Positions 7,412-25,402 of a stretch of DNA of 47,772 nucleotides are shown piece after piece. The translations under genes and the position numbers were made by a program. The notes beneath the pieces were generated by a model. It searched no databases, was not told the origin of the DNA, and saw only the letters and a program-made list of their open reading frames with translations. Within the stretch, counting starts at the first letter, position 1, and each line of letters starts with the position of its first letter. Source of the stretch: Terriglobia bacterium (GTDB lineage Bacteria; Acidobacteriota; Terriglobia; UBA7540); assembly GCA_030040315.1 (NCBI GenBank), contig JASHTY010000286.1, positions 1 to 47,772 of the forward strand, in the 5' to 3' direction.

Positions 7412-8710
7412 CTAAACCGGGGTGGCCTGTGTTGCTCGAACCTTCGAGTATGCGTCGAGAACTTTTATAAGAGCGTCGGCAATCTGATGCATATCCTCTT
7501 CTGTGAAGGTGGGGAAGGGAAACACCGTGAAGGTATGCGTCTCATGCCACACCGCGTTGGGGACCTCAACATGCGAGTAATCGACACTGGCGGGATTGGT
7601 GTATTCCCTGGAGCGGAAGGGGAAACCCGACTTGCCAAAGGCGGCAAAATCCCGATAGGCACGCTCCGTATGACACTGCGGCCAAAAAACCTTCCAGCAG
7701 GGAACGCCCTCCGCCACGGCCGCCTGTACGAATTGCTGGATGTCGCAGGTCAGCGCGTCCATATCCAGCGAAAATGCCATTGTATAGAACCCATTGCGAC
7801 GGTCGGGCGTATCCACGGGCAGGAATTTCACTTCCGGGCGTATTCGCAGAGCGTTGATGACGATGTTCGCGTTGCGGCGGCGCGTGGGCATGTTCCAGTT
7901 GTCCATCCGGGCCAACTCAGATAATCCGACTGCTGACTGCATTTCGGTCATGCGGTAGTTCCAGCCTACCATATTGTGGATGTAAGGAAGCTTTTGCTCC
8001 ATCTCCAGCATTGAGAGGCGTTCTTTCACGTCGTATCCATGGTCGCGAAAACTGCGCGCCTTCCATGCCAGTTCTTCATCATCCGTGGTCACCATCCCGC
8101 CTTCTCCCCCGGTCGTGAAAGTTTTGTTCTGGCAAAAGCTGCAAGCCGCGATGCGTCCCAGCGTCCCGGTCTTTCTTCCCTTATACATCCCGCCGAATGC
8201 CTGGGCGTTGTCCTCAACCACCGAAAGACGGTGGCGCTTGGCGAAGTCCAGAATCTTATCCATGTCGCAGACGTTGCCGTATAGATGGACCGGCAGAATG
8301 GCTTTGGTCCGCTCGTTTACAAGTTTCTGCGCTGACTCCACGCTCAGACAATGATCCTCAAGATTGACATCTGCAAAACGCGGAATAGCTCCTGCCTGAA
8401 CTACGGCGAAACTGGTGGCAATGAAAGTGTAACTGGGGACAATGACCTCATCGCCCGGTCCGATTCCCAAGGCACTTAATGCCACATGCAATGCTGCGGT
8501 ACCAGTCGCGACACTGATGGCATATCGGCTGCCCTGCCATTCCGCGAACTTCCTCTCAAACTCCATGCCCTTTTTGCCGGTCCAATAATTGACCTTCCCC
8601 GACCGCAAAACCTCTGTGACCGCGGAAATGGCGTTGTCGTCGAATTGCGGCCAGCCCTTCAAGGGGTTGGTAACTGCTTTTGGGCCGCCATCGACAGCCA
8701 GTTTGCTCAT
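7412..8710 (-). CDS. DegT/DnrJ/EryC1/StrS family aminotransferase
   Basis: GTAALHVALSALGIGPGDEVIVPSYTFIA; VVEDNAQAFGGMYKGRKTGTLG; FCQNKTFTTGGEGGMVTT (PLP Lys motif). Confidence 0.92.
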   Translation of the reverse strand: MSKLAVDGGPKAVTNPLKGWPQFDDNAISAVTEVLRSGKVNYWTGKKGMEFERKFAEWQGSRYAISVATGTAALHVALSALGIGPGDEVIVPSYTFIATSFAVVQAGAIPRFADVNLEDHCLSVESAQKLVNERTKAILPVHLYGNVCDMDKILDFAKRHRLSVVEDNAQAFGGMYKGRKTGTLGRIAACSFCQNKTFTTGGEGGMVTTDDEELAWKARSFRDHGYDVKERLSMLEMEQKLPYIHNMVGWNYRMTEMQSAVGLSELARMDNWNMPTRRRNANIVINALRIRPEVKFLPVDTPDRRNGFYTMAFSLDMDALTCDIQQFVQAAVAEGVPCWKVFWPQCHTERAYRDFAAFGKSGFPFRSREYTNPASVDYSHVEVPNAVWHETHTFTVFPFPTFTEEDMHQIADALIKVLDAYSKVRATQATPV

Positions 8711-8885: not shown

Positions 8886-9111
8886 TAATGCGTTTCCTAC
8901 ATTCTCGAGAGCTGTGCCGGTGATATCGCGGGGAATATTGAAAGCTGGTACTAATTTACTCGCGCCCAAGGGATTGCATACAAAAGGCCCGTGGCGGGCG
9001 ACCTCAGTAAAGCCAAGCGCTCCCCATTCCCGAGGAGGTCATACCGCCGGCAAAAGTTGCAAGTGCCTTTTTACCGGAAACATCAAATGCGAAAATTAGA
9101 GAAAGGCATAG

Positions 9112-9154
9112 TCGGGGCGCCCAGATTCGAACTGGGGATCTCTTTGGTCCCGAA
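9112..9154 (-). pseudogene. Partial tRNA-Pro 3' half (acceptor, T arm, variable loop, anticodon loop); candidate att site
   Basis: TCGGGGCGCCCAGATTcGAACTGGGGAtCTCTtTGGTCCCGAA matches 25049-25090 (tRNA-Pro CGG) with two substitutions and one extra T; similarity stops at the anticodon loop. Confidence 0.85.
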
Positions 9155-9428
9155 GCTAAGTAGTATAACGCATCTTATTGATTTTGCGGCACGCTTGGCA
9201 ACGCAATACGCTAGCAGAAATTTCACACTTGCGGTAACATCGGCACCGATACTTCCAATTGAATCCCAGGGTGTATTGCGACACATCCTGATGAAAGCTC
9301 TCCCACTTCGATTGGTTCAATATCTCGGTCAGGTCGCATTGGCTCGGTTCTCTGATACGAGGGGTTGGGCTGGGGGGTGGTATTCCCGCACTCGGGGCCC
9401 GTCTGCGGAGAGGACGGTCATAGATCGA

Positions 9429-10943
9429 ATGCGTGATCGGGGCGTTCAAATCGGACGACGAAAATTATTGAAACATACTGCGCGGGCCACCGGTGCCGCC
9501 ACTCTTTCGCGATTATTCAGAGGAAGCCATCTGGATGCCCGCCCGCCCGAGCCACCCAACATTCTGTTCGTTCTTGACGACCAGTTGCGTCAGGACGTTG
9601 GCAAGTTCGTTCCCATGCCGAATTGTGAGCGGCTGGGCCGGGAATGCATTACGTTTCGCCATGCCATCTCCACTACGCCGCTTTGCACTCCGTTTCGTGG
9701 CATGTTGATGACGGGGCGCTATCCGATGAACTCCGGGGTGCTGATCAACGGCGTCAACGTCAGCCCGGCGCATAACCCCGACTGCTTGGCCCAAGTTTTT
9801 TCGCGTGCCGGTTACGACACCGGATTCATTGGAAAGTGGCATCTCGCCAGCGGCGTCCGCACCGCAGCCGGGCTCTACCAGTTTCACCCGGCAGAGGCAG
9901 CCGCCTGGATGAAGCAGCATCCCAACAGCGAGTTTGTGCCTCCGGGCCCGGATCGCTTGGGCTTCAGCTTCTGGCAAGCCTACAACTTTCACATGGACTT
10001 TAACCACTATTGGTATTACGAAAACGAGCCGAAGAAGATTTACTCCCAGAAATACACGACGGACACCAACATCGACCAGGCCATCGATTTCATAGAAAAG
10101 CGCAAAAAACCAGACAAGCCGTTCCTGCTGGTGGTGGCGCCGCATCCGCCCCATCCCCCGTTCACACTCGAATCCCTGCCCTCAGGATATCTGGAGAAAA
10201 TCCCCCCCGCCACGGACCTCTTCCGCCCTCCCAACGTGCCCAGCACAAATAATCCTATGAAGCCGGAAGAGTGGCGTATTTACCTGGCGATGGCTAAGAA
10301 TTTTGACGACAACCTGGGGCGTTTGCTCGATTATTTGGATCGGTCCCCGGCAGGGGAGAACACACTGCTGGTATTAACGGCCGATCATGGCGAGATGGCC
10401 GGCAGTCACGGCGGAGAGGGTAAGATGGTGCCGTACGCCGAGTCGGTAAATATTCCCTTGAAGATGCGCTGGCCGGGGTACATTCCCGCCGGTGTAACCA
10501 GCGACGCTCTTTACACCCCCGTCGATCATTTGACGACCCTCTGTGGACTCGCTGGGGTCCAGCCTCCCCGCGAAGCCGACGGCCGCAACCTCAGTGAAGT
10601 CGTCTTGGGACTGGGAGAGTCTCGCCGCGACGCCGTCCTTATGGCCAACTATTCCTCCGAGCCGGCGTTTTTTCAGACGGGAACGACGTTCCCAGAATGG
10701 CGCGCCGTGCGGACGACTCGCTACACGTACGTGAAGTGGTTGGCGGGGCCGGAGGCACTGTTCGACAACGCTGAGGATCCTTACCAAATGCGCAATCTGA
10801 TAAAGGAAGATCGAGCCCTAGCAACGGTGACGGAATTCCGCCGTCGGCTGAAAGATTTACTGGCTTCCGCCAACGACCAGTTCCTCCCCGGCGACCGTTA
10901 CGGAGCTTGGTACGACGCCAATCGCAACCTGATCAAGAATTAG
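9429..10943 (+). CDS. Sulfatase (arylsulfatase/alkaline-phosphatase superfamily), Tat-like signal
   Basis: PNILFVLDDQLRQD; C-x-P-x-R formylglycine motif CTPFRGMLMTGRYP; GFIGKWHL; TADHGEMAGSHG. The ORF-track start (8991) runs through the tRNA fragment, so the start is placed at MRDRGVQIGRRKLLK. Confidence 0.88.
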   Translation: MRDRGVQIGRRKLLKHTARATGAATLSRLFRGSHLDARPPEPPNILFVLDDQLRQDVGKFVPMPNCERLGRECITFRHAISTTPLCTPFRGMLMTGRYPMNSGVLINGVNVSPAHNPDCLAQVFSRAGYDTGFIGKWHLASGVRTAAGLYQFHPAEAAAWMKQHPNSEFVPPGPDRLGFSFWQAYNFHMDFNHYWYYENEPKKIYSQKYTTDTNIDQAIDFIEKRKKPDKPFLLVVAPHPPHPPFTLESLPSGYLEKIPPATDLFRPPNVPSTNNPMKPEEWRIYLAMAKNFDDNLGRLLDYLDRSPAGENTLLVLTADHGEMAGSHGGEGKMVPYAESVNIPLKMRWPGYIPAGVTSDALYTPVDHLTTLCGLAGVQPPREADGRNLSEVVLGLGESRRDAVLMANYSSEPAFFQTGTTFPEWRAVRTTRYTYVKWLAGPEALFDNAEDPYQMRNLIKEDRALATVTEFRRRLKDLLASANDQFLPGDRYGAWYDANRNLIKN

Positions 10944-10968
10944 TGCAGTTTCCAGGAATTGATTGGAC

Positions 10969-11023
10969 AACGTAGCGCCGCCCCTCGAGGGCGGCACATG
11001 CCGGGGTCAAGCCCGGCGCTGCA
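10969..11023 (-). repeat. Interspersed palindromic repeat, copy 1 (intergenic)
   Basis: Reverse complement GCGCCGGGCTTGACCCCGGCATGTGCCGCCCTCGAGGGGCGGCGCTACGTT aligns to copy 2 at 14919-14973. Confidence 0.75.
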
Positions 11024-11042
11024 TTGATATGAAGGAGCCTTT

Positions 11043-13250
11043 GTGACCACGGCCATAAAACAACTCATTGCTGCTGGAGTGCTGCTTATTACGGTGCAAT
11101 CCGCCGGTTCAGCCGGAGCCATTCCGGGCCCGCGGCCCGAGAAGGGGCTAATCGAAGTGCGCAATGACAACTACCCGGTTGTCATCGCCCACGCGGTGGA
11201 GCGTCTGCGCGCCTATAGCCCGATTCCTTTGGACATGAGCTGCTCAACTGACCCGCGCGTGCACCCGGAACTGTACGCCTTAACTTTATTAGTAGGTGTT
11301 ACGGGAAATGATCCGGACCTTGAAGAAGCATGGGGCGGAAAGATGCCGGAGTCCGACGAAGCCTGGGCGCTGAAGACACTATCGAAGTCGCCGCTGACCA
11401 TTGCGGTGACGGGCAACCGGCCTCGGGCGGTGCTCTACGCTGCCTACCGTTTGGCTGACGAAATGAAGCTCGGGCGCAATCTCGCGGCGCTCGACGAAAC
11501 CCATGCGCCGCGAATTGGCGAGCGGGAAACCTGGCTGAACGCGACGGCGATCGGGGCGGTAGTACCACGAAACTCGCAGTTCATGTCCACCGTCAACGAA
11601 TTGCCACGCTACGGGCTGAATGGCGTCATGATGGTGCCCGGGGACCTCAGCCTGCCTCCCGCCACACCGGGCCACGAGAGCCTGCCTCTAGTTCTGGATC
11701 AGAACGCGACAATCCGCGTGGACGAAGCGCGCCGGCTTGAGTGGATGACCTTTCTCGACGCCATCAAGTCGTACGATATGAACGTAACCCTGACCGCCGA
11801 TCCCTTAATTCCTCCTGGCACTGAACCGGCGGCGGTCGAAGCCTTCCTCAAAACGGGGAAGATCCCGGCCCAGTATCTCGAAAAGTTGCGCGTCTTCTAT
11901 GGCGAGTTCACCAACAAGCTGTTGAATGCTTTGCCGCAGATTGACGCCATTGCGCTTACCCCGGGAGTGGAAGGCGCAATGTACAACCAGGAGGCGAGTT
12001 TTCCCGGCGTGCGGCTGTTTTTGGACGGCCAGGACCTGCACGCGTGTAGCGCCGTAATGTCTGTGTATTTCGACGTGGTCACCCGAATTGCCAAGGCGCG
12101 CGGCAAGCGGGTGGTATTTTGGATTCACTCCTATGGCACGACTTCAGACGGACTGCGCGCCATGTGGAACCTCGCGGCCCAATACCCCGGCGTGGTGCGA
12201 ATGGGCGAGGACTACTGGCCGAATGAGCTCTGGCCGAATGGCGGCACGAGGCTGAAAATCATGGCCTATCTGCCGCCGGACGTGCGCGCCCACTTCGACG
12301 ACGCCGCTCCGCTCGGTGCACTCGCCGTGACCGATGCCGAATGCGACGGGGATGGGGCTATGCCTAACGCCTATGCCGATCAGTACGTCTATTCGGCGGC
12401 GGAGTTGATGAAACACAAAGCGGTTTGGGTCTCCTTCCGGTTAGATCAATGGGATTGGACCGCGTGGGGCACGTTATGGAATGTCTCCGGAATCGAGATT
12501 GAGCAGTTTGCGAACGCCGTATGGACGAACGCCCGGACTCCTCAGCAGGTTTGGGACGAGTGGATCGAGCGCCGCTGGGGCAAATCGGCCTCTCCCTTCG
12601 TCTCCGCTGCCCTGGCCAAGTCCGGCGAGATTATTCACGATGGTTTTCTGGTTGACGGTATCAATATGTTTCATCACAGCACCATTGGTCCCCGGCGCTG
12701 GACTCCCAGCGACCCATATTCCTACGAATCCGATATCTTCCACATGTTCGCCCGGCCGGGGCAACTGATCTACACGAAAGGTCCTGAAGCTTCGCGATTG
12801 AGCTATGAGCAGTGGCCCGCTCAATTGCATGCGAAGACCGTTTCCATTGAGGATTTTCGCCAGCAACAGGCTCGAGCCACCCACGCCGTGGACCAAGCAC
12901 TCGCTGAGCTGGACAAGGCTTCGCCATTCTTGAGCCGCCCGGATGATGATTACCTGCACAGCATCTTCACCAACGCCGGCCAGGTGATTCGCGTGTTCTC
13001 AGCGCTGGCCGAAATGGCCTACGCCGTCCATTTACTGCGCGACAACTATGCGGGTGTGTCCGATCCCCAGACGCTCTTTGAAAAAGACGTGGCAGCCGTG
13101 GAGCAACTCGCCGGTGATCCCGCTATCGAAGCCCTCAGCTTCCCATTCGCCTTCCAATTCGGGCGCGAGGAAAAGCCATCCGACGACAGCATGAAACGCA
13201 ACCTGCTGCAGATCGTCGCCTTGTACCGCAACTATGCAAGAACGCATTAA
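11043..13250 (+). CDS. Uncharacterised secreted glycoside-hydrolase-like protein (GH67/GH20b-type N domain plus TIM-barrel-like core), paralog A1
   Basis: LYAAYRLADEMKLGRNLA resembles the N-terminal domain of alpha-glucuronidase/GH20 proteins; GTG start with AAGGAG SD; strong similarity to 14848-17103. Confidence 0.65.
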   Translation: MTTAIKQLIAAGVLLITVQSAGSAGAIPGPRPEKGLIEVRNDNYPVVIAHAVERLRAYSPIPLDMSCSTDPRVHPELYALTLLVGVTGNDPDLEEAWGGKMPESDEAWALKTLSKSPLTIAVTGNRPRAVLYAAYRLADEMKLGRNLAALDETHAPRIGERETWLNATAIGAVVPRNSQFMSTVNELPRYGLNGVMMVPGDLSLPPATPGHESLPLVLDQNATIRVDEARRLEWMTFLDAIKSYDMNVTLTADPLIPPGTEPAAVEAFLKTGKIPAQYLEKLRVFYGEFTNKLLNALPQIDAIALTPGVEGAMYNQEASFPGVRLFLDGQDLHACSAVMSVYFDVVTRIAKARGKRVVFWIHSYGTTSDGLRAMWNLAAQYPGVVRMGEDYWPNELWPNGGTRLKIMAYLPPDVRAHFDDAAPLGALAVTDAECDGDGAMPNAYADQYVYSAAELMKHKAVWVSFRLDQWDWTAWGTLWNVSGIEIEQFANAVWTNARTPQQVWDEWIERRWGKSASPFVSAALAKSGEIIHDGFLVDGINMFHHSTIGPRRWTPSDPYSYESDIFHMFARPGQLIYTKGPEASRLSYEQWPAQLHAKTVSIEDFRQQQARATHAVDQALAELDKASPFLSRPDDDYLHSIFTNAGQVIRVFSALAEMAYAVHLLRDNYAGVSDPQTLFEKDVAAVEQLAGDPAIEALSFPFAFQFGREEKPSDDSMKRNLLQIVALYRNYARTH

Positions 13251-13265
13251 CCCATCAAAGTGATG

Positions 13266-14493
13266 CTACCTGTGACGGTGAGGCTTGGTGCTCTGCCCAG
13301 ACTCTTCCAAAGAAAATTTCTTGTAGTCGTTCGTGCACGCAACTCCATCCGTTACGTACATCGTGCGGGCATTCGAAGAGATCAAAATTGAACTGCTCGT
13401 TTGCAATCGGATAGTCTCGGGCTCTTCAAGGTCGACATGAGCACAAATCGAATGTGGAAACGCGAAGTGGTCGGACATTTGGTCTTTGATGTTTTCAGTA
13501 TCGAGCGGCTGCGCCCGTCGGAACAGCCGCGCCATGCCCACGTTCCTGTACAGCGCGTTTGGCCAGAATCGTGCCCCCTCGGACTCTAATTCCAGTTGGC
13601 AGAAGTGTTTGGAGTGGGTCGGAATCCCACCCTCGGGGTACAGGAACGCTTCACGGTCCGGTGCCCCCTCGATGTCGATCGCTTCGCCGTCGGCGTGACC
13701 GATCAGGAAGTTCATGGAGGCGACGCGCTGGGTTCCGGTAATCGCCAGAATCGCTTCGTGCATGTTGCGAGCGTTCAAGATATCCCGCACTCGCATCCGA
13801 AAGGGCTTCTTATAAGCGTTTCGGCCGTCTTGCGCGGAAAGTAGTGCATTGATGACCACACCCAGCCCCTCCTGGTTTGCCACTGCATGCCGCCCACAGT
13901 CCCGGTTTTCCCCAGGCAGATGAAATCCGTCTCGTCCTTGCGATGAGCGCGCAGGCGACCATCACCTTGATGTCGGCCCAGTCCCAATTCTGGCCGATGA
14001 AGGTTTCGTGGTTCTTCGTGCATTTCGGCATGACGGCGAAAGATGTGCATCCGTCCACTCCGGCGCGGCGGCCAGCGGCGGCTGTTGCCTGCTTCACTTA
14101 TTCGAAGTAGAGCACGTAACGGACATTGAGCTTGGTGATTTCGCGTAGCGGAAATCGGAAACTTTCGGAAACGCCTTTCAGCTCGGTTGCCAATCCGGGG
14201 TCCAGCCGCTCCAAATATGGGATCCATTTCTCAGATTCGGACAGGATCGCTTCTGGCATACCGCCAATGGCGGCAAAGCGCCGGAAATTGGTATCAAGAT
14301 TCTGCTCGATATCGGAGCGCTGGACTTCACCATGCACCCTCCCACCCTCGCAGGGATTATCACCCACAAGGTAAATGATCGGAATCATGCAACATCTTTT
14401 CCTCAAACTATACAGAGCGTCATGCCTCCTCGCGCTTTCCGCTGTCGATCGGAGATCGACGCTACAACTTATGCCGCTCGGTATAGTAATCAC
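13266..14493 (-). pseudogene. Peptidase C45 / acyl-CoA:6-APA acyltransferase-like gene, broken
   Basis: Consecutive C45-like segments in three minus frames: PIIYLVGDNPCEGGRVHGEVQRSDIEQNLD...RYVLYFE, in-frame TAA, GCTSFAVMPKCTKNHETFIGQNWDWADI, shift, HRKDETDFICLGKTGTVGGM, shift, NQEGLGVVINALLSAQDGRN...NFLIGHADGEAIDIEGAPD. Confidence 0.75.
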
Positions 14494-14565
14494 CTTGGCG
14501 AGAAAAAGTGCTACCGAATGCAGCAGTCCTGAAGTATACCAAACGCGAGGGCAGAGGGTACCTTA

Positions 14566-14630
14566 GCGGTGGCGCAGGCACTCCTGCCTGCGCCGACCCC
14601 GGCACAGCCAGGAGTGGCTGATCCACCGGC
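14566..14630. repeat. Hairpin-rich intergenic repeat-like element
   Basis: GCGCAGGCA-CTCC-TGCCTGCGC hairpin followed by CAGCCAGGAGTGGCTG hairpin. Confidence 0.45.
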
Positions 14631-14847
14631 GTGCCGGTTCAATGGTTTACATTGTGGATAACAGGCCGAAACTCGATCTTTTCACGCGTTCCGGGTACTG
14701 TTTCAGTGGGACTAGCAAGTAGCGCAGACCTGATCTTGAGGTCCGCGGTTCGTGCGGAATGCGCCAAGGAAAAGCCAAGGACCTTGGAAAACGGGCTCGC
14801 GCTCCTCCTCAGCGCTGAGAATCATAAGATGAAAGGAAATCATTATA

Positions 14848-17103
14848 ATGAATGCAAATCGACTCATCGCAATTGGAATGCTCGTTGTTACGGGGTTGTT
14901 CCTGCCGGTAGTGGGAGACGTCGCGCCGGGCTTGAGCCCGGCGCGTGCAGCCCTCAAAGTCGGCGCTACGTCGTCCACCCGACCTGCGAAGGGACTGATC
15001 GAGATGCGTAATGACGACTACCCTGTCGTGTTGACCCACGCGGTGGAGCGCCTGCGCGCCAATAGTCCGATTCCACTGGATTTAAGCTGCTCGCCTGACC
15101 CGCACGTGAACCCCGAACTTTACGAATTCACCATCGTGCTGGGAGTGACGGGAAATGATCCGGACCTCGAAAAGGCCTGGAACGGCAATATACCCGATTC
15201 GCAGGACGCCTGGGCGCTCAAGACACTGTCAAAGTCTCCCCTCACGATTGCCTTGACTGGCAAGCGTCCGCGCGGGGTCTTGTACGCGGCGTATCGGCTG
15301 GCCGACGACATGAAACTGGGGCGCGACCTCGGCGCACTGAACGAGACGCATGTGCCGCTGGTGGGGGAAAGGGAAGCCTGGGTAACCTCTACCGCGTCGG
15401 TGGGCGGCGCCGGTTTGGCCTCGCGATATTCGCAGTACACGTCGACCCTCAATGAGTTACCGCGCTACGGGCTCAATGGCGTCATGATCGTGCCGGGGCA
15501 TCTCAGTCCCCCGCCACCTGAACCTGGCCACGAGACCCTGCCCCTATTCGCGGACAAGGACGGAAAATTCCGTGTGGACGAATCTAGGCGGCTCGAGTGG
15601 ATGAGCCTCCTCGACGCCATTAAATCGTACGATATGAACGTCACTCTCACAGCAGATCCCCTCACCCCTCCGGGCTACTCGCCGTCCCAAGTTGAGTCGT
15701 TTGTCAAAACGGGTGTAATCCCTCCCCTGTATCTCCGGGAGGTGCGGACATTCTACAGCGACTTCATCAATAAACTGCTGGACGCGTTGCCGCAGGTGGA
15801 CGCGATTTCACTCACGCCAGGAGTGGAAGGCGCCATGTATCGCCAAAGTGGCGCGATCCACACAGTGCGGCTGTATCTTGCAGGCCAGGACATGCGGGCT
15901 TGCAATAGGATCATGGGCACCTATTTGGATGTGGTCACGAGGATCGCCAAGGTCCGCGGCAAGCGGGTGGTGTTTTGGATCCACTCTTACGGTACCACCT
16001 CCGACGGTCTGCGCGCCATGTGGGAACTGCCGGCCCAATACCCAGGAGTCATTCGGATGGGAGAAGACTACTGGCCCAATGAGATCTGGGCCGTCGGCGG
16101 CACTCGCGTGCCCATCATGGCCTATCTGCCGCCGGACGTCCGCGCACATGTTGAGAAAGGCGCTCCGCTGGGCGCACTCGCCATCACCGATGCCGAATTC
16201 TATGGGGGTGGGGCGCTGCCCGATGCCTTCGCCGACCCCTACGTATATTCCGCGCAGGAACTGATCAAGCGGCAATGCTCCTGGATGACCTTCCGCTTAA
16301 ATTGCTCGGACATGACTCCCTGGGGCACCCTGTGGAGCGTGGCCGAGATCCAGATCCTGCAGTTTGCCAACGCGATCTGGACGCCCGCTTTATCTCCCCA
16401 GCAGATTTGGGACGAATGGGTGGAACGTCGTTACGGTAATGCCGCCACACCCTTCGTTTCGGCGGCGCTGGCGACGTCAGGCGCCATTATTCACGATGGA
16501 TTTTCCATTGAGGGCATCGGCTTGTTTCATCACAGCATGATTGGTCCCACGCGTTGGACCCCGAGCCAAGCGTACTCCTACGAATCCAGTAGCTTTCATA
16601 TGTTTGGCCGGCCGGGTACCCTGATTTATGACAAAGGTCCCAATGGCTCGCGATTCAGTTATGAGCAGTGGCCCGCCCAGGTGGATGCCAAAGCCATTTC
16701 CATCCAGGAATTCCGGCAGCAACAGGCCCGGGCAAGACAGGAGGTCGAAAAGTCATTAGCCGATTTGGACGAGGCCAGTCCGTTCCTGAGCCGCCCGGAC
16801 GATTTTTACCTCCACAGCATCTTCAGCAACGCCAGGCAGGCAATCCGGGTGTTTTCGGCACTAGGCGAAATGGCCTATGCGGCCAACCTACTGACGGACA
16901 ACTACGCGCACGAGGCCGACCCTAACGCACTTTTTGAGAAGACAGCGGCCGACGTCGAGCGGCTCGCGAACGACCCGGCGATCAGAGCGCTGAGTTACGC
17001 GCACGCTCAGGTTCACGCCGGAAAGGACCTTTCCGAAGACGATATGAAGGCATCCCTGCTGCGGATTGTCGCGCTGTATCGCGAGTATGCAACCCATCAC
17101 TGA
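14848..17103 (+). CDS. Uncharacterised secreted glycoside-hydrolase-like protein, paralog A2
   Basis: Near-colinear with 11043-13250 (GLIEMRNDDYPVV..., RVVFWIHSYGTTSDGLRAMW, RMGEDYWPNE); signal peptide. Confidence 0.65.
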   Translation: MNANRLIAIGMLVVTGLFLPVVGDVAPGLSPARAALKVGATSSTRPAKGLIEMRNDDYPVVLTHAVERLRANSPIPLDLSCSPDPHVNPELYEFTIVLGVTGNDPDLEKAWNGNIPDSQDAWALKTLSKSPLTIALTGKRPRGVLYAAYRLADDMKLGRDLGALNETHVPLVGEREAWVTSTASVGGAGLASRYSQYTSTLNELPRYGLNGVMIVPGHLSPPPPEPGHETLPLFADKDGKFRVDESRRLEWMSLLDAIKSYDMNVTLTADPLTPPGYSPSQVESFVKTGVIPPLYLREVRTFYSDFINKLLDALPQVDAISLTPGVEGAMYRQSGAIHTVRLYLAGQDMRACNRIMGTYLDVVTRIAKVRGKRVVFWIHSYGTTSDGLRAMWELPAQYPGVIRMGEDYWPNEIWAVGGTRVPIMAYLPPDVRAHVEKGAPLGALAITDAEFYGGGALPDAFADPYVYSAQELIKRQCSWMTFRLNCSDMTPWGTLWSVAEIQILQFANAIWTPALSPQQIWDEWVERRYGNAATPFVSAALATSGAIIHDGFSIEGIGLFHHSMIGPTRWTPSQAYSYESSSFHMFGRPGTLIYDKGPNGSRFSYEQWPAQVDAKAISIQEFRQQQARARQEVEKSLADLDEASPFLSRPDDFYLHSIFSNARQAIRVFSALGEMAYAANLLTDNYAHEADPNALFEKTAADVERLANDPAIRALSYAHAQVHAGKDLSEDDMKASLLRIVALYREYATHH
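14919..14973 (+). repeat. Interspersed palindromic repeat, copy 2, inside the coding sequence of paralog A2
   Basis: GCGCCGGGCTTGAGCCCGGCGCGTGCAGCCCTCAAAGTCGGCGCTACGTC; encodes APGLSPARAALKVGATS, absent from paralog A1. Confidence 0.75.
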
Positions 17104-17341
17104 GCCACACCGGAAAATTGGCCCGTAAAGACAAAGAAATAGACGCGCTACAATACGCCCCATGGTTCTACTCCTCTGTCTCGAAGAGTGACGGTGAAGG
17201 GCCGCGCCGTGGTTCCGCCAGCGGAGCTGTCCACCGTGTGGGGGGGTGACACCGATTTCCCTCTCACATTCCCAAGGTCAGAAACGCGGTCGTTACCGAA
17301 ACGCGCAGCAATTGACCGAAGACAGAAAGTCAGAAATGCAC

Positions 17342-17371
17342 TTGACAATCAGCGCACGGGCGTGATATCTA
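17342..17371 (+). promoter_or_regulatory. Sigma70-like promoter upstream of the TonB-dependent receptor
   Basis: TTGACA (17342-17347), 18-nt spacer, TATCTA (17366-17371). Confidence 0.45.
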
Positions 17372-17465
17372 CGCTGCGAATTGGGCTTCCTATCACTTCT
17401 TGAAGACTGTCAAGTTTGGGGCGTAGTGCTCGGGTCACTCGGAAACAATTTGAAAGGAGACCATT

Positions 17466-20400
17466 ATGCCAGCGCCTTTCTGCCACAGGTTCAACGGGCG
17501 CGGGCCGCATGGGGGTGTTTCTTACGCGGCCAAATGCATTACCCCCCTCGCGCTCCTGCGCGGACTCTGTCATCTGATGCGTTTCGGATTTGTATTGGTG
17601 GTGCTCGCCCTGCTTGCGATGCCCGCCGCCGCTCAAAACTCCACCATTCAAGGGCAGGTCTCCGACCCCCAAGGGGCGGCCATTCCGGACGCCCAGGTTT
17701 CGGCTAGGAACAACGCCACGGGAGTCGTTGTTACCGTCACCACAAACTCGGCAGGTCTTTACCTGTTGCCCAGTCTTCTAGTGGGTCAATACCGGGTGGA
17801 AGCCAGTAAACAGGGATTCGGGCCCGAGGTGAGGGACAACGTGCGACTTGAGGTCGCTCAGTCCGAACAATTGAATTTTGTCCTTCAACTTGGGCACGTC
17901 ACCCAGAGGGTCACGGTACAGGGTACCGGTGAAGTGCTTAATACCGTTACCAGCACGGTGTCCCAGACCATCTCCAACGCGCAAGTGATTGACCTGCCCT
18001 TAAACGGCCGCAATTACCTGCAACTGGGCCTACTAACCCCCGGCACCGCGCCTGCCTATGGCTCGCGCGCCGACAATAATGGCGTGGGCGGCTTCACCGC
18101 GGTCGGAGCGCACGGTGTGCAAGTAAGCATTTACCTCGATGGGGCGAACAACGATTCGATCGCGAGCGGCGGCGAGGTCGGCTATCAGGTGCAAGCCGTT
18201 ACTCCGCCCATCGACGCGATCAATGAATTTGCCGTCATCACCGACAACAACTCCGCCGAGTACGGCGTGCGCATGGGCGGCACCGTTATCGCTAGCCTTA
18301 AGTCCGGCACCAACCGGTTTCACGGTGACGGGTGGGAATTCTTCCGGAACCAGGCGATCAGCGCTGCGAACTTCTTCTCGGTGGGTAAACCCAAGCCGGC
18401 GCTGGTTTATAACCAATTCGGCGGCACCATCGGCGGGCCGATCAAGAAGGACAAGGCGTTCTTCTTCGTGAGCTACCAGGGCACCCGCAACCATTCTGGA
18501 ACCACTAGCATCTCCACGGTGCCCACGGCAGCCGAACTGCAAGGCAACTTTGCGGGCTACAAAACCATCTACGACCCCACCACCACGACGGAAGTTTCTG
18601 CCGGCGTATATTCCCGCACCGCCTTCGCGAACAATGTCATCCCCCAATCGTATTGGGATCCGGTGGCCACCAAAGTACTGGCCCTCTACCCTTCGCCCAA
18701 CGGCACCGGTATTACCAACAACTACTATTTTTCTGGGTCCGGTATATCGGACAATAACGAAGTTGATTCACGCGTGGACTACAACTTTTCCAGCTCCGAG
18801 CGGCTCTACGGGCATTACAGCCACCGCACGGAATCGGACTTGACCCCGGGCAACCTTCCCTACCCGGCCGACGGCGGAAGTTCGGAAGACGTCCTGATCT
18901 GGGCGCACAGTGGAGTTATCGGTTTGACCTCGACGATCTCTCCCACCTTGGTCAATGAATTGAACGCTTCACTGACGGAATATCCGACCCGATTGGATTT
19001 ACCTCCCTATTGGACATCGAAGGTGAATATGGACGCCCAGCTCGGTATTACCGGGATTGCGCCTCTCCCCGACAATGCCAACAGTTACGGAATGACCTAC
19101 TTCAATGCCACCAATTACGCCAGCGTTGGACCGGATAACTTCTGGCCGAACATAAACTTTCTGGATACCGAGCAGCTCCAGGACAAACTGATGTGGAGTC
19201 ACGGGCACCACATGCTGAAGTTTGGCGCCGAATACCTCCGTTTTGGCACGGACCGTGTCGCCTCGCGTTATTCGCGGGGGAACATCGGATTCGTCGGTTA
19301 CTTCACCGAAAACCCGCAGAGCCGCGCGACAACGGGTGACGGCATCGCTGACTTTCTGCTGGGTTATGGCGGCTCCACCGTACTCGGCAACATCAACGGC
19401 GAGACCAATCTCGCGTCCAATTACGGAGGATTTGCCCAGGACGCGTGGCAAGTCAGCAAGCGCCTGACGGTGAACTTGGGCGTACGCTGGGACCTGTACG
19501 AACCTCCGCACTTCCGCTACTATCAGAATGTTAGCCGATTCGACCCCTTCGTCGGCACTCCCGACTACGGGCAATTCCAGTACCCCACCAGCGATTCCGA
19601 TACCGGAGGCAATTGGAATTACCACAATTTCGCGCCGCGTCTGGGCATCGCCTTTCAAGCTACACCCAAGACCGTGGTGCGGAGCGGCTTCGGCCTGTAC
19701 TACAGCATGACGGACAGCTATGTGAGCATGGACGAACGCTTCTTCAACATGCCTCCGGTGTTCACCGAGATCACTTTTTCGACAGACGAACTTTTTTCGC
19801 CGACCTTGTATCTCAAGAACGGCTTTCCGTCAGGCCTGCTTCCCACCACTACCATTCAGCCCAACGTCTCGGTCGATGCCGTACAGCCGAACTTTCCGGA
19901 TCAATACGGCGAGCAGTGGTTCTTCGATGTGCAGCGGGAGTTGACCACCAACACCGTCCTGACCGTGTCGTATATGGGTAATGGAAGTCATCATCTGACG
20001 GTTGTTAGGGCGATAGACCAACCTGTGGTAGCCGGCCCGGGTTCGGTACAGAGCCGTCGGCCGTTTACCCAGTTCTCGGCGATCAGTATGGCTGATCCGC
20101 TGGGAAACGAAGCCTATAATGGCTTGGCAGTTAAATTGGAAAAGCGTTACTCGCGCAACCTTTCGCTGCTCAGCTCATATACCTACTCTCATGCCATTGA
20201 CAATGTCAGCGAGGTGAACAGTACGGCGCAGGGCCAAGGGATCGAGAATAACTACAACTTCCAGATCAACCGCGGAAACTCCGAGTTCGACCTGCGGCAC
20301 GTTTTTGTCAGCAGCGCCCTTTACAACCTGCCGTTTGGTGTGGGCCAACCCTTCTTGAGCAATAAGGGTCTGGCCGACGCGTTTTTGGGCGGCTGGCGAC

Positions 20401-20834
20401 TGGGAGGGATTATCACCATCGAATCCGGGCCGCCCTTCACTCCCACCGAGAGCGTCGACCTCATCAACAATGGCACCACCGATCGTCCCAATGCCATTGC
20501 CGATGGCAACCTGCCGCGCGGCCAGCGCAGCATTGCCGACTGGTTCAACCTGGCGGCGTTTACGACTCCGGCGGCCTACACCTACGGTACCGCCAATCGC
20601 GACTGTCTCTACTCTCCCGGGATTGTGAACTTGGACATGAATTTGGCCAAGGATTATCACTTCACCGAGAGCAAATACATCGAAGTGCGCGCCGAGGCGT
20701 TTGACTTCACCAACACGCCGCATTTTGGTGTTCCGGCCGCGAACGTGAACCTGGCGGGCGCCGGTACCATTACGAGCCTCGCCACCGGGGCGAATCCGCG
20801 GTTAATGCAACTTGCGCTAAAAATCTACTTTTGA
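17466..20834 (+). CDS. TonB-dependent receptor with N-terminal carboxypeptidase-regulatory-like domain (Oar-type)
   Basis: STIQGQVSDPQGAAIPDAQVSARNNATG; VIDLPLNGRNYLQLGLLTPG plug motif; GGTIGGPIKKDKAFFFVSYQGTR; C-terminal beta-barrel ending in F. SD AAAGGAGA. Confidence 0.92.
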   Translation: MPAPFCHRFNGRGPHGGVSYAAKCITPLALLRGLCHLMRFGFVLVVLALLAMPAAAQNSTIQGQVSDPQGAAIPDAQVSARNNATGVVVTVTTNSAGLYLLPSLLVGQYRVEASKQGFGPEVRDNVRLEVAQSEQLNFVLQLGHVTQRVTVQGTGEVLNTVTSTVSQTISNAQVIDLPLNGRNYLQLGLLTPGTAPAYGSRADNNGVGGFTAVGAHGVQVSIYLDGANNDSIASGGEVGYQVQAVTPPIDAINEFAVITDNNSAEYGVRMGGTVIASLKSGTNRFHGDGWEFFRNQAISAANFFSVGKPKPALVYNQFGGTIGGPIKKDKAFFFVSYQGTRNHSGTTSISTVPTAAELQGNFAGYKTIYDPTTTTEVSAGVYSRTAFANNVIPQSYWDPVATKVLALYPSPNGTGITNNYYFSGSGISDNNEVDSRVDYNFSSSERLYGHYSHRTESDLTPGNLPYPADGGSSEDVLIWAHSGVIGLTSTISPTLVNELNASLTEYPTRLDLPPYWTSKVNMDAQLGITGIAPLPDNANSYGMTYFNATNYASVGPDNFWPNINFLDTEQLQDKLMWSHGHHMLKFGAEYLRFGTDRVASRYSRGNIGFVGYFTENPQSRATTGDGIADFLLGYGGSTVLGNINGETNLASNYGGFAQDAWQVSKRLTVNLGVRWDLYEPPHFRYYQNVSRFDPFVGTPDYGQFQYPTSDSDTGGNWNYHNFAPRLGIAFQATPKTVVRSGFGLYYSMTDSYVSMDERFFNMPPVFTEITFSTDELFSPTLYLKNGFPSGLLPTTTIQPNVSVDAVQPNFPDQYGEQWFFDVQRELTTNTVLTVSYMGNGSHHLTVVRAIDQPVVAGPGSVQSRRPFTQFSAISMADPLGNEAYNGLAVKLEKRYSRNLSLLSSYTYSHAIDNVSEVNSTAQGQGIENNYNFQINRGNSEFDLRHVFVSSALYNLPFGVGQPFLSNKGLADAFLGGWRLGGIITIESGPPFTPTESVDLINNGTTDRPNAIADGNLPRGQRSIADWFNLAAFTTPAAYTYGTANRDCLYSPGIVNLDMNLAKDYHFTESKYIEVRAEAFDFTNTPHFGVPAANVNLAGAGTITSLATGANPRLMQLALKIYF

Positions 20835-20843
20835 ATCCCTCCA

Positions 20844-20874
20844 CCGGCAGGCCGGGAATTTCTCGGTCTGCCGG
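20844..20874 (+). terminator. Terminator-like hairpin after the TonB receptor (no clear U tract)
   Basis: CCGGCAGGCCGGGAATTTCTCGGTCTGCCGG, a strong stem directly after the stop codon. Confidence 0.5.
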
Positions 20875-21088
20875 ACTCTCTTAATCCTGGGTATTCACCA
20901 AGATCGAACCCCAATCCCCGCTGTCCAAGGCGGCAGCTTCGCGGCCGCACTGCGAAAGCGGCTGCGCCCCAGGGTTCACGCCGCGAACCGGCCCGCGCAG
21001 GGCCTGAAGTTTCTCATTAACATCGGCCACGAGGGGAAGGAATATTTTCCCGCCTTGACCGACAATCATATTTTGGAGAGATATCCTC

Positions 21089-22936
21089 ATCGCTAAACAC
21101 ACGGTAGACCGGCGCAAGTTCGTTCTCACGGGCCTGGGCGCCGGACTCCCAGCAGCCCTAACTCAAACCTTCCATCTCGGTGGAGCTTGCGGCGAGCCGC
21201 GTTCCCTCCGTGCCTTCGATGGCGCGGCGCGGCCGGACCCTCACCCCGACCATCCCCGTATTATCCCCCTCCTCTACGGCACGCCGCGCCCTGAGACCGA
21301 TGTGGGCGCATGGATCCAGAGCATGAAGCGCTGGGGCGTGAAGCAGTGGAGCGCCTTTGCCTACGACTCCCACCCGTTCGGCCAGCGCGCGGGCAGTGGC
21401 AGCCGGAGCATTCCTTTCCTCGCCGACGCCTGGCCCGGATTCGGTTCCTATATCGACCGCGCGGCGCTCGAGGCGGGTGAGGCGGCCATGCGCAACTCCG
21501 CGCAACTCAGTGACGATGCCGGAATCGAGTTCTGGTACGCGGTCCCATTCCCCATGTTTCCCGTCCAGGACGACGCGGTGGTTCGGAAGGTGCTCCCTGA
21601 CTTCTACAAGTCGGGAAGGATGAATATTTACGACCCGCGCCTGGCTGAACTGGTGAAGAGCGATGTCCGCGCCCTGAAGAAGGGCCTGCCGAATCTTAAA
21701 GGTGTCCAGTTGTGGCTCTGCGAAGGCGGTGGCTCGGGAGTGGAATTTACCCGCGAGGATCTTCTGCACCTTGTGGAATGGCAGACGCCGCTGGCGCGAA
21801 CCTTCAATGAGGTAACGCAAGAGTTGGGAATCGGCGGGATTATCTTTGCGCACCACTATCTCCACACCGTGGCTACGCACCGCAATGTCTACAAAATGAT
21901 GGCAGAGTTCCCCGAACTGATTCTGATGGAGGACATCACTTGGCCGGCCGAGGACATGCAGCATCAGTTTTTGGCTTATCTCAACCACGCGGATCGCGAG
22001 TTGCTGTTCCAGGTGAATCCCGTCGCGCTGAACTTTCTGATCGATACGGAGTACACGGGCGAGGGCGTGTTGCCCAGCGTCTACCCGCGCTGGTGGAAGT
22101 TGAATGTCGCACAGGCCATTCGCAGCGGCGCGAAAATCGCCATGGGCCGCGTCTTCTATTGGGATAACGGCTACACGGATGTGAATTTCAATCGCCTCAA
22201 CGCGCACATCTTCGCGCGCTTCTGCTATGAGCCGGACGCCGACCCCCGGCAACTGCTGGGCGAGGCCGCGCAGGAGATGTTTGGCAACCACATCCCCGAG
22301 CGCCTGGTGGACATTCTGTGGCAAACCGAACCAGTGCTGAAGAATGTGGTGGGCGTGAACGGGATCTATGAACTCGATCACTCGCGATTCCCGCAGGCCT
22401 ACTGGATGGACATCCTCTACACCCCTCAGAACAACGCCATGTTCGCGATCGACGATCTGTTTACGCCGCCGGGGTCCGTTCTGTATCCGCCATATTCCGA
22501 CGATCTGGTGAACCTCAAGCAGTGGCGCTGGCAGAACAAGACCGTCAGCAAGCCAGCCGCGGCATACTTGGCCGAAAAGCAGGCGGCGATCTCCTGGGTT
22601 GAGAGTGTTCTGCCTGAAGTGCGCGAGTTGGCGCGCGAGCTCGATCCGCATCACGGCGAGATGTTCGTGCACGGCTATGAAATGCTGCTGGTTCTTGCCA
22701 AAGGCATAGCGCTGTATATTGAAACCGCCGCCACCCACTATGCGTGGGCGCGTGGCAAGACGCTGGATGACCCTGCGGCCAAGGTGCAGTTTCATACCTT
22801 AGCAGATCGATTCCGCGCCCTCGCCGCCCAAGCCGATGACCGTCCCTTTTTGTACAAGACGCGCATGCTGGCGTTCGCGGACTTTCTCGAAAACGGTCTG
22901 CCGCGCCTTTCACCGCAGCACAAAGTGGCGAGTTAA
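21089..22936 (+). CDS. Uncharacterised Tat-like secreted hydrolase candidate (TIM-barrel-like), paralog B1
   Basis: Colinear with 22951-24798. In-frame upstream extension of ORF-track 21302 gives xAKHTVDRRKFVLTGLGAGLPAALTQ (Tat-like RRKFVL). Start appears to be ATC at 21089 with GGAGAG SD at 21075-21080. Confidence 0.7.
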   Translation: MAKHTVDRRKFVLTGLGAGLPAALTQTFHLGGACGEPRSLRAFDGAARPDPHPDHPRIIPLLYGTPRPETDVGAWIQSMKRWGVKQWSAFAYDSHPFGQRAGSGSRSIPFLADAWPGFGSYIDRAALEAGEAAMRNSAQLSDDAGIEFWYAVPFPMFPVQDDAVVRKVLPDFYKSGRMNIYDPRLAELVKSDVRALKKGLPNLKGVQLWLCEGGGSGVEFTREDLLHLVEWQTPLARTFNEVTQELGIGGIIFAHHYLHTVATHRNVYKMMAEFPELILMEDITWPAEDMQHQFLAYLNHADRELLFQVNPVALNFLIDTEYTGEGVLPSVYPRWWKLNVAQAIRSGAKIAMGRVFYWDNGYTDVNFNRLNAHIFARFCYEPDADPRQLLGEAAQEMFGNHIPERLVDILWQTEPVLKNVVGVNGIYELDHSRFPQAYWMDILYTPQNNAMFAIDDLFTPPGSVLYPPYSDDLVNLKQWRWQNKTVSKPAAAYLAEKQAAISWVESVLPEVRELARELDPHHGEMFVHGYEMLLVLAKGIALYIETAATHYAWARGKTLDDPAAKVQFHTLADRFRALAAQADDRPFLYKTRMLAFADFLENGLPRLSPQHKVAS

Positions 22937-22950
22937 GAGGAGCTGAACCG

Positions 22951-24798
22951 TTGGATCACAAGAAGTTGAACCGCCGCATGTTTGTACTTTCAGGACTGGG
23001 GGCAACGCTGCCGAGCCCCCTTCGCTGCACGGTCAAGTCTTCCCGCTTGCAGGGAGCAATGAATCCTCGCGTCGAATCCGACGCGGCGGCCGCCCAGGGG
23101 GAGATGAACTCCGGTTCGCCCCGCATCATCCCCATGCTCTACGGTTCTCCGCGTCCGGAAACCGATCTCGACTCATGGTTCGCGGCCATGAAAAGCTGGG
23201 GTGTGAAGCAATGGATGCCCTTTGCGCTGCCCGAGCCCATCCACTATTTGAAGCAGAATAAGCATTCCCAATCAGTGGCCTTTTTTGCCGACGCCTGGCC
23301 GGGTTTCAAGCCGCATCTGGACCTGCAAAACCTGGCCGAGCAGGAGGCCTTTTTCCACAAGATGGAGAAGCTGAGCGTTGCGAACGGCATGGAGTTCTGG
23401 TACCTCATTCCGTTTCCGATTTTCCCCAGCCGCGATCCCACCGTGGTGAAGGCGGTGGTTCCCGAGTTATTCAAATCGGGGAATCTCAATCTCTACGATC
23501 CGCGCGTGCCGGAATTGATGAAAGCGGAGATTCGTGCGCTCAAGAAGGGAATGCCCAGCCTGAAAGGCGTCAACGTTTGGCTGGCGGAAGGCGCCGGCGT
23601 GTGGGAACTCACGCGGGAAGACCTGCGGCATAACAAGGAATGGGAAGGCCCTCTGATCAAGGCCCTCAACGATGTGGCCCAGGAACTGGGCATCCAGGCG
23701 ACGCTCTTCTCTCATCATTATCTTCATACCGTGCGGACCCGCCGGAATGTCTACGAATTAATGGCGGATTACCCCGAACTGATTCTGCTCGAGGACATCA
23801 CCTGGCCGGAAGAGGATATGCTGCATCCCTACCTGGGATACCTCAACGCAAGCGATCGCAAGCTGCTCTTCCAGACCAACCCCGTTGCCGTGAATTACCT
23901 GATTGACACCGAGTACATCGGGGAAGGCGTATTGCCGAGCGTCTATCCTCGCTGGTGGAAGCACAACGTGCAGGAAGCCGTGCGCAGTGGCGCGCAAATC
24001 GCCATGGGCCGCACTTTCTTTTGGGACGAAGGCTATACGGACGTCAACTTTAACCGGCTGAACGCGCACATTTTCGTCCGACTGTGCTACGAACCCGACG
24101 CTGACCTGCGCCAATTGCTCGGCGATGCAGCACGCGAGATGTTCGGGGTTCGCATTCCCCAGCGCCTGGTCGATATTCTCTGGGAAACTGAGCCCATACT
24201 GAAATCGATCATTGGGATCAACGGCGTGGATTCACTCGACCATTCGCGCTTCCCGCACGCGTTCTGCATCGATGTTCTCTATAGTCCTTGGCACACTCCG
24301 ATGAAGGCGATCGATGACCTGTTCTCGCCGCCGGGCACGGTTCTGTACCCACCCTATTCCGATGAGCTGATCAATTTCAAGCAGTGGCGCTGGGAGAACA
24401 GGATCGTGAGCCAGCCCGCCGAGGTCTACTTGTCGGTGAAGAGGGAGGCCATCGCCTGGGTTGAAAAAGTCCTGCCCGAGGTTCGCCAGCTTTCCCAGGG
24501 TCTCGAACCCCGTCACCGCGACATGTTCGTGAATGGCTACGAAATCATGGAAGCTCTTGCCAAGGGAATGGAGTTGTTTGTCGAAACGGCGTCGGTCCAC
24601 TACCAGTGGGCACACGCCAAAACGCTGGATGATCCCGCGGCGCGCGCGCAGTTCGAAAAATTGGCGGACAGTTGGCGGGCCCTGGCCGCAACCGTCCCCC
24701 CGAACCCGTTCCTTTATAAAGAGCGAATGCTCGAGCTTGCCGAATTCATCGAGAAAGACCTGCCTCGCATTTCGCCGGATTACAAACTGCCGGTTTGA
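22951..24798 (+). CDS. Uncharacterised Tat-like secreted hydrolase candidate (TIM-barrel-like), paralog B2
   Basis: NRRMFVLSGLGATLPS Tat-like signal; TTG start with GAGGAG SD; RIIPMLYGSPRPETDLDSWFAAMKSWGVKQW; LIDTEYIGEGVLPSVYPRWWK; TFFWDEGYTDVNFNRLNAHIF. Confidence 0.75.
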   Translation: MDHKKLNRRMFVLSGLGATLPSPLRCTVKSSRLQGAMNPRVESDAAAAQGEMNSGSPRIIPMLYGSPRPETDLDSWFAAMKSWGVKQWMPFALPEPIHYLKQNKHSQSVAFFADAWPGFKPHLDLQNLAEQEAFFHKMEKLSVANGMEFWYLIPFPIFPSRDPTVVKAVVPELFKSGNLNLYDPRVPELMKAEIRALKKGMPSLKGVNVWLAEGAGVWELTREDLRHNKEWEGPLIKALNDVAQELGIQATLFSHHYLHTVRTRRNVYELMADYPELILLEDITWPEEDMLHPYLGYLNASDRKLLFQTNPVAVNYLIDTEYIGEGVLPSVYPRWWKHNVQEAVRSGAQIAMGRTFFWDEGYTDVNFNRLNAHIFVRLCYEPDADLRQLLGDAAREMFGVRIPQRLVDILWETEPILKSIIGINGVDSLDHSRFPHAFCIDVLYSPWHTPMKAIDDLFSPPGTVLYPPYSDELINFKQWRWENRIVSQPAEVYLSVKREAIAWVEKVLPEVRQLSQGLEPRHRDMFVNGYEIMEALAKGMELFVETASVHYQWAHAKTLDDPAARAQFEKLADSWRALAATVPPNPFLYKERMLELAEFIEKDLPRISPDYKLPV

Positions 24799-24923
24799 AG
24801 GGGTGGACTGGAACTGCGCGCCGCGCCTTCGGACGGATCTTCCTTTTTCCGGGAAGCGTGATTTTCCTGCTAACTGACCTGTGAGAATGGAGTTTTTTGT
24901 TATCGCCCGGCAAGCGGCCCCGT

Positions 24924-25042
24924 CTACATATCCGGGAGGGTCACGCCCAGTGCCTTCAGGATTTGCTGCTGATTCAAAATCGTGAATGTGGTGCGAACTG
25001 GTACTTTTTGTGAGAGCTCTTTGAGTGCTAAGTCCTTTAGAA
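24924..25042 (-). pseudogene. Possible transposase C-terminal remnant abutting tRNA-Pro
   Basis: Minus frame reads [39 protein letters not shown]; resembles C-terminal tails of IS4/IS1634-type transposases (recalled pattern, not searched). Confidence 0.3.
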
Positions 25043-25045
25043 AGA

Positions 25046-25122
25046 TGGTCGGGGCGCCCAGATTTGAACTGGGGACCTCTTGGTCCCGAACCAAGCGCGC
25101 TACCAGGCTACGCTACGCCCCG
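25046..25122 (-). tRNA. tRNA-Pro(CGG), CCA encoded
   Basis: Cloverleaf: CGGGGCG/CGCCCCG acceptor, CTTGG-TTCGGGA-CCAAG anticodon arm, CCCAG-TTCAAAT-CTGGG T arm, discriminator A plus CCA. Confidence 0.95.
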
Positions 25123-25325: not shown

Positions 25326-25402
25326 TGGTCGGGACGGCCAGATTTGAACTGGCGACCCCTTGCACCCCAAGCAAGTGCGCTACCAGGCTGCGCTACGTCC
25401 CG
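25326..25402 (-). tRNA. tRNA-Pro(GGG), CCA encoded
   Basis: CGGGACG/CGTCCCG acceptor, CTTGC-TTGGGGT-GCAAG anticodon arm, GCCAG-TTCAAAT-CTGGC T arm, CCA. Confidence 0.95.

Follow-up and report, generated by a model that had tools for sequence, protein, structure and literature searches.

What is the block of about 16 kb that is enclosed by an intact tRNA-Pro(CGG) gene and a copy of the 3' half of this gene in a Terriglobia bacterium (Acidobacteriota)? We analysed this locus within a window of 47,772 nucleotides, i.e., the whole stretch presented here (NCBI GenBank assembly GCA_030040315.1, contig JASHTY010000286.1, positions 1 to 47,772), which belongs to a draft genome of 636 contigs and 5.4 Mb with 73% completeness (G000). 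A first-pass annotation had regarded the block as a candidate genomic island integrated into the 3' half of the tRNA gene. It is most likely that block 9155-25045 is the remnant of such an element (probability about 0.88). Integration at tRNA-Pro(CGG) is favoured by the arms of the attachment sites (att), by empty and occupied sites in relatives, by the absence of the tested cargo pairs from relatives and by a complete reference element, whereas the simple left boundary proposed before and a difference in composition were not borne out. The following features make up the two attachment sites (attL and attR):

25046-25122, minus strand: intact tRNA-Pro(CGG), the putative regenerated integration target, with its 3' end toward the block (ARAGORN and Rfam)
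9100-9154, minus strand: displaced 3' half of tRNA-Pro(CGG), the putative attR core, through the anticodon loop
9155-9205, no strand assigned: attR arm, proximal part, ...GCATCTTATTGATTTTGCGGCACGCTTGGCAACGCA (91% identity over tRNA fragment and arm to G006 C462)
9206-9262, no strand assigned: attR arm, decayed distal part, GGCACCGATACTTC versus TGGTACCGATTTGGTACTCG (from a reading of the site alignment; the arm search ends at 9202)
24986-25045, no strand assigned: attL arm, a GGTGCGAAC-TGGTACTTTTT repeat and CTAAGTCCTTTAGAAAGA next to the tRNA 3' end (ungapped match to the attL arms of relatives)

The tRNA-Pro(CGG) gene at 25046 is the only tRNA-Pro with this anticodon found in the source genome. 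Its copy had been described as a 43-nt match in the same orientation at 9112-9154 with two substitutions and one insertion; our alignment showed exactly these differences and extended the similarity to 9100, ~12 nt past the tRNA 3' end (55 aligned columns, 89% identity). The identity spans the entire anticodon loop and ends there, in agreement with the boundary noticed before. Against the whole 5.4-Mb genome, fragment 9100-9154 had an E-value of 3.2e-12 and ranked fourth for tRNA-Pro(CGG), behind the three intact tRNA-Pro genes. Because the CGG anticodon has been retained, the fragment derives from tRNA-Pro(CGG) and not from the neighbouring tRNA-Pro(GGG). Rfam gave no tRNA match within 9100-9154, presumably because half a tRNA is too short. 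An intact tRNA gene at one end and a fragment of it on the same strand and on its 3' side, the marks of an island in a tRNA gene (tDNA), are thus both present. Solitary pieces of tRNA-Pro were also observed elsewhere in G000, including a 5' half without an attached 3' half (C1:4239-4271), possibly left by a tRNA broken by a failed or excised integration, and a 3' piece (C92:246-282; T-arm and acceptor, 95%) that is joined to an unrelated coding region and has no arm of the kind described below.

Directly inside the fragment, the sequence at 9155-9205 (...GCATCTTATTGATTTTGCGGCACGCTTGGCAACG) is not of tRNA origin and is not unique. The tRNA fragment and arm of the window were 91% identical over 95 bp to G006 C462 and 74-83% identical to other members of the arm family. 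Just the proximal 30-50 nt of the attR arm are kept in the window, in the fixed register beside the tRNA 3' half that characterizes this TTGATTTTGCGGCACGgTTGGCAAC-arm family. At the opposite end, 24986-25045 was compared with the arm that lies between the integrase stop codon and the same tRNA in two relatives, and agreed in exact register at 34/60 (G019) and 36/60 (G035) positions. It was the best ungapped match to both of these attL arms in the entire window on both strands, and it lies against the tRNA 3' end, as does the attL arm in the TTGATTTTGCGGCACGgTTGGCAAC-arm family. The flanks of the empty sites described below had no match to the attL arms of G019 and G035. With arms at 9155-9205 and 24986-25045, both ends of the element are therefore present. 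Next to the attL arm, a short open stretch on the minus strand (24870-24985, ...RTTFTILNQQQILKALGVTLPDM-stop) resembles the C-terminus of some lost gene.

Occupied and empty versions of the same site were found in relatives. In the congeners G005 and G008, the gene for an aldehyde dehydrogenase (ALDH) is the immediate neighbour of an intact tRNA-Pro(CGG), 103-110 bp from the ALDH start codon, which represents the empty site. In G006, ALDH has the same 110-bp spacing as in G008 and is followed by the tRNA-Pro fragment and arm closest to those of the window. G003 also has ALDH, next to a tRNA-Pro fragment and then a different element; its intact tRNA lies on a separate contig, as does an integrase-like reading frame. 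In G019 and G035, an integrase gene with a matching arm is located 60-100 bp from the 3' end of tRNA-Pro(CGG), and integrase-like genes ending near this tRNA were also detected in G025 and G003; hence this tRNA is a repeated target. Moreover, a complete 6.4-kb element with the same geometry as the block was identified at tRNA-Met in G042 (C125), in the order tRNA-Met fragment and arm, helix-turn-helix (HTH) protein, resolvase, 366-aa integrase ending about 70 bp from the tRNA, and intact tRNA-Met(CAT). The element at tRNA-Pro(CGG) on contig C55 of G019 (L093:9766-18250) carries an integrase, a TrwC/MobF relaxase and a Cas3-like HD/helicase protein; the TrwC relaxase was present only in this relative. 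On the right side of the block, the tRNA-Pro(GGG)/ROK neighbourhood is conserved across the family. The flanking features are as follows:

7412-8710, minus strand: DegT-family aminotransferase left of the fragment (conserved in G006 and G008)
25326-25402, minus strand: tRNA-Pro(GGG), conserved host flank on the right (tRNA calls and order in relatives)
26073-27056, plus strand: ROK-family gene, conserved right host flank (68-81% identical in relatives, in the same order)

The left flank is a different case. It had been proposed that the DNA upstream of DegT was the original neighbour of tRNA-Pro and that relatives would show the two joined. Congeners do have an empty tRNA-Pro site, but its neighbour is ALDH and not DegT; the window's own left flank is not ALDH, and the DegT flank was ruled out as the empty-site neighbour. 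A DegT/Gfo-Idh/permease/MFS cluster lies left of the 9112 fragment in the window. DegT is not the host neighbour of tRNA-Pro(CGG) in either G005 or G008; in G008, the tRNA-Pro site is empty and the DegT cluster lies on a separate contig. In a DNA search, similarity to G006 upstream of DegT ended at about 8888, short of the fragment. The source genome carries its ALDH gene on contig C94. There, 105 bp from the ALDH start codon, lies another tRNA-Pro 3' fragment that has decayed further than the one at 9112 (33 columns with 3 mismatches; 0/5000 shuffles as good), followed by genes for an AGE-type epimerase-like protein, for a ROK protein and for a TonB-type receptor. Given this arrangement of ALDH on C94, we regard the 9112 fragment as most likely a scar inside a composite island. 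We infer that C94 is physically linked to the left end of the window, and consider it rather probable that the locus was built up by accretion into a composite island, with the left of the window and at least 7 kb elsewhere in its distal part. In G046 (C484) and G004 (C141) (L078 and L077), we also observed homologues of DegT with 77-78% identity to that of the window; G046 belongs to another family of the class, and transfer of this gene is possible.

Several results weigh against the view that the block is the remnant of an integrated and later accreted element. No integrase, relaxase, excisionase or recognisable remnant of them was found in the window. The earlier remark that no integrase is visible was upheld by tblastn with the integrases of six relatives, which gave only chance-level matches throughout the window, by the absence of any PF00589 match on its contig, and by a search for decayed integrase, which revealed no remnant at either end of the block. 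Relaxase or conjugation genes were likewise missing among the Pfam-scanned genes of the block, and the features of an integrative conjugative or mobilisable element were not found. Since the integrase gene that belongs inside a tDNA island is absent from the interval, the block was filed as a degenerate remnant and not as an active island; excision or a circular form is not expected without an integrase in cis. Composition, which had been suggested as a check, gave no support for an island either: the GC content is 57.9% inside the block, 57.6% on the left and 59.6% on the right, and tetranucleotides did not separate the block from its flanks. The similar GC content and the lack of an integrase remnant imply that the insertion is old or that the donor had a similar composition. 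With regard to the composite structure, the best alignments to the attL end of a second element left of 9112 had p values of 0.11-0.14 and gave no clear end, an attR arm was not recognisable on C94 (p 0.63-0.90), and no sequence connects C94 to the window. In addition, the DegT cluster left of 9112 has congeneric orthologues at ordinary identity (81-92% in G006/G008, compared with 89-90% for the host ALDH gene), and a rearrangement or misassembly of the metagenome-assembled genome (MAG) may have occurred left of 9112.

The last point leads to the alternative that survives best, in which 9112 is a real attR and a chromosomal rearrangement or an assembly join, not a second element, placed the DegT cluster on its left. 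The lack of a clear second attL end on that side gives this explanation some weight, and both the genus-conserved appearance of the DegT cluster and the fragmented, incomplete draft would suit it. However, successive integrations would be expected to leave a second decayed tRNA-Pro fragment beside ALDH, as is observed, and several relatives carry different elements at tRNA-Pro(CGG), so that we regard the alternative as unlikely. A single clean island, with 9155-25045 as the whole element and the DegT cluster as the host DNA that originally adjoined tRNA-Pro, appears improbable. Its fragment, arm and tRNA geometry is complete for one element, and the DegT-cluster orthologues resemble the host ALDH in identity, but the neighbour at the empty sites of G005 and G008 is ALDH, the cluster of G008 is on a different contig, the ALDH of the source genome sits beside another tRNA-Pro fragment, and the similarity upstream of DegT ends before the fragment is reached. 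That the fragment is merely a leftover of tandem tRNA duplication or a chance match in ordinary chromosome is very improbable: the solitary tRNA-Pro pieces on C92 and C1 are compatible with it, but the conserved arm beside the fragment, common to sites in many genomes, the E-value of the fragment (3e-12) and the absence of the tested block genes from all 60 relatives are not.

Under the preferred reading of a remnant of successive integrations, an integrative element would have inserted itself into tRNA-Pro(CGG) within its 3' half, through site-specific recombination at the anticodon loop. The element's own copy of the tRNA 3' half would have made the gene whole again (25046-25122) and displaced the original 3' half to the opposite end of the insertion (9100-9154), and the two arms of the attachment sites (24986-25045 and 9155-9205) would be what survives of the element ends. 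Its integrase and transfer genes were presumably lost afterwards, while the polysaccharide-handling cargo stayed. An older insertion at the same tRNA probably left the more decayed 3' fragment beside ALDH, which is now on C94. In this account, which is the simplest one, the 9112 fragment would be the scar between a younger proximal part and an older distal part, in an order of integration events that we infer.

The arm was not restricted to this locus. In the aligned sites, the tRNA 3' half extends to the anticodon loop and is followed by ~10-15 variable bases and by an arm of ~90 bases with two terminal TTGTAC-like repeats. It was also found at C282 and C310 in G000, and numerous genomes of the bacterial family to which G000 belongs contain it as well; among 299 genomes of the class, 20 contained it, all of them members of this family. 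A diverged copy lies beside a tRNA-Met 3' half in G042, which belongs to another family. The T-loop was in the same register at 29 of the 41 distinct arm sites compiled from fetched loci, nearly all of which are from one bacterial family. The tRNA halves at these sites, whose names were read by eye and are not the result of a tool, include Pro (CGG, GGG and TGG), Ala, Gly, Asn, Arg (three), Asp and Thr. Judged from these alignments, the pattern is the signature of one end of an element family that integrates into tRNA 3' halves. The first-pass annotation had held that occurrence of the fragment at many unrelated loci would speak against an island. Such loci do exist, but they are the ends of one element family and most lie beside a tRNA 3' half, which strengthens the island interpretation instead. 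Two further sites of this family were noticed. C282:5510-5603 in G000 is a second attR with a tRNA-Pro 3' half of anticodon TGG, whose intact partner would be C632:583-658, and two copies of the arm motif 271 bp apart in G036 (C159:17837-17861 and 18108-18132) suggest nested or serial integrations at one site.

A broader reading, for which we see even chances, is that an element lineage in one bacterial family has kept the arm sites of its integrase nearly fixed while its core moved between a dozen or so tRNA species (three Pro, three Arg, Ala, Gly, Asn, Asp, Thr and a diverged Met). In the same evenly balanced scenario, the window would hold an accreted, integrase-less relic of this lineage with two almost unknown families of glycan enzymes. 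The genes of the block are listed below:

9430-10943, plus strand: sulfatase (PF00884 and SGSH_C) with a Tat-like leader (Pfam)
11043-13250, plus strand: orphan protein, paralogue of 14848-17103 (68%; no Pfam or NCBIfam match)
13266-13883, minus strand: C45-type acyltransferase/hydrolase fragment (below the family cut-off, model positions 149-313 only)
14848-17103, plus strand: orphan protein (no relative in 60 relatives, 396 phylum genomes and the GTDB pattern scan)
17466-20834, plus strand: TonB-dependent receptor-type outer membrane protein (PF25183 and CarboxypepD_reg; Pfam)
21104-22936, plus strand: orphan enzyme, paralogue of 22951-24798 (60%)
22951-24798, plus strand: orphan enzyme with weak structural likeness to TIM-barrel glycosidases (GH138/GH20/GH67/GH84; model and Foldseek)

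The longest open reading frame of the sulfatase opens at 8991, ahead of the attachment site on its left side, and continues across the tRNA fragment; this start is not credible and the true one is probably near 9430. The two pairs previously called hydrolases are indeed paralogue pairs (68% and 60% identical), but the hydrolase label has no family match behind it: neither pair had a Pfam family or an NCBIfam match above the cut-off, and one tested member of each had no match among PDB sequences. The proteins at 22951 and 14848 had no match in the 60 relatives compared for cargo, eight of which are congeners. The 14848 family was also absent from 396 genomes of the phylum and from a GTDB pattern scan, the sensitivity of which is limited. 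In the same limited scan, the 22951 family was found only in an acidobacterial MAG (58%) and an Elusimicrobia MAG (38%), and the protein had no plasmid match. Apart from the closest match of the cargo, gene families of the Solibacter type also point to an acidobacterial host. Its homologue in Acidobacteria SZAS-4 adjoins a sulfatase that is just 23% identical to that of the window. The structural model of the 22951 protein (pLDDT 65, moderate confidence) was matched by Foldseek to TIM-barrel glycosidases (E about 1e-9, TM about 0.5), and the model of the 14848 family had a pLDDT of 31. The cargo is sporadic in comparison with the flanks, as both orphan pairs are missing in the 60 relatives whereas the ROK/tRNA-Pro order is conserved. 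Together with the sulfatase and the TonB-type receptor, these predictions suggest that the cargo may serve in the degradation of a sulfated or uronic-acid-rich glycan, with a presumed role for the orphan enzymes.

Islands integrated in tRNA genes are already well known. Islander (PMC4383910) defines the tDNA-island signature and lists anticodon-centred attachment sites, tandem arrays and damaged islands. The block resembles these islands in its intact tDNA, its same-strand 3' fragment on the correct side and its anticodon-centred att site, but it has no integrase gene, so that the Islander filter would reject it, and it probably represents a single layer within a composite, of which a separate contig carries the second fragment in a more decayed state. 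The elements of G042 (C125) and G019 (C55/C42) share its arms and the order of tRNA 3' fragment, arm, element, integrase and intact tRNA; however, they have kept the integrase (with HTH protein and resolvase in G042, and with TrwC/MobF relaxase and Cas3-like protein in G019), while the window has cargo only. In another acidobacterium, 'Candidatus Solibacter usitatus' Ellin6076, candidate islands near tRNA genes and abundant integrase genes have been reported (PMC3174227). The association with tRNA genes is similar, but those islands were called by IslandPath from aberrant GC content and dinucleotide bias, whereas the block was mapped by its attachment sites and has no composition contrast. What is added here is the arms of an element family, its range of tRNA targets and a composite locus.

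This locus illustrates how a soil-type bacterium gained a glycan-degradation cluster that is absent from the sampled relatives, by way of a mobile element at tRNA-Pro that was probably stacked on an older one and that lost its mobility genes while the cargo was kept. Public genomes contain almost no relatives of two of the enzyme families in the cargo. Target switching by integrases has been frequent (PMC4383910), yet it is rarely seen as a close series, and the element family described here, whose arms are conserved and whose tRNA targets are many, is a tractable case for its study. If the broader reading of a lineage with nearly fixed arm sites is true, the lineage would be a natural series for how tyrosine integrases change their target.

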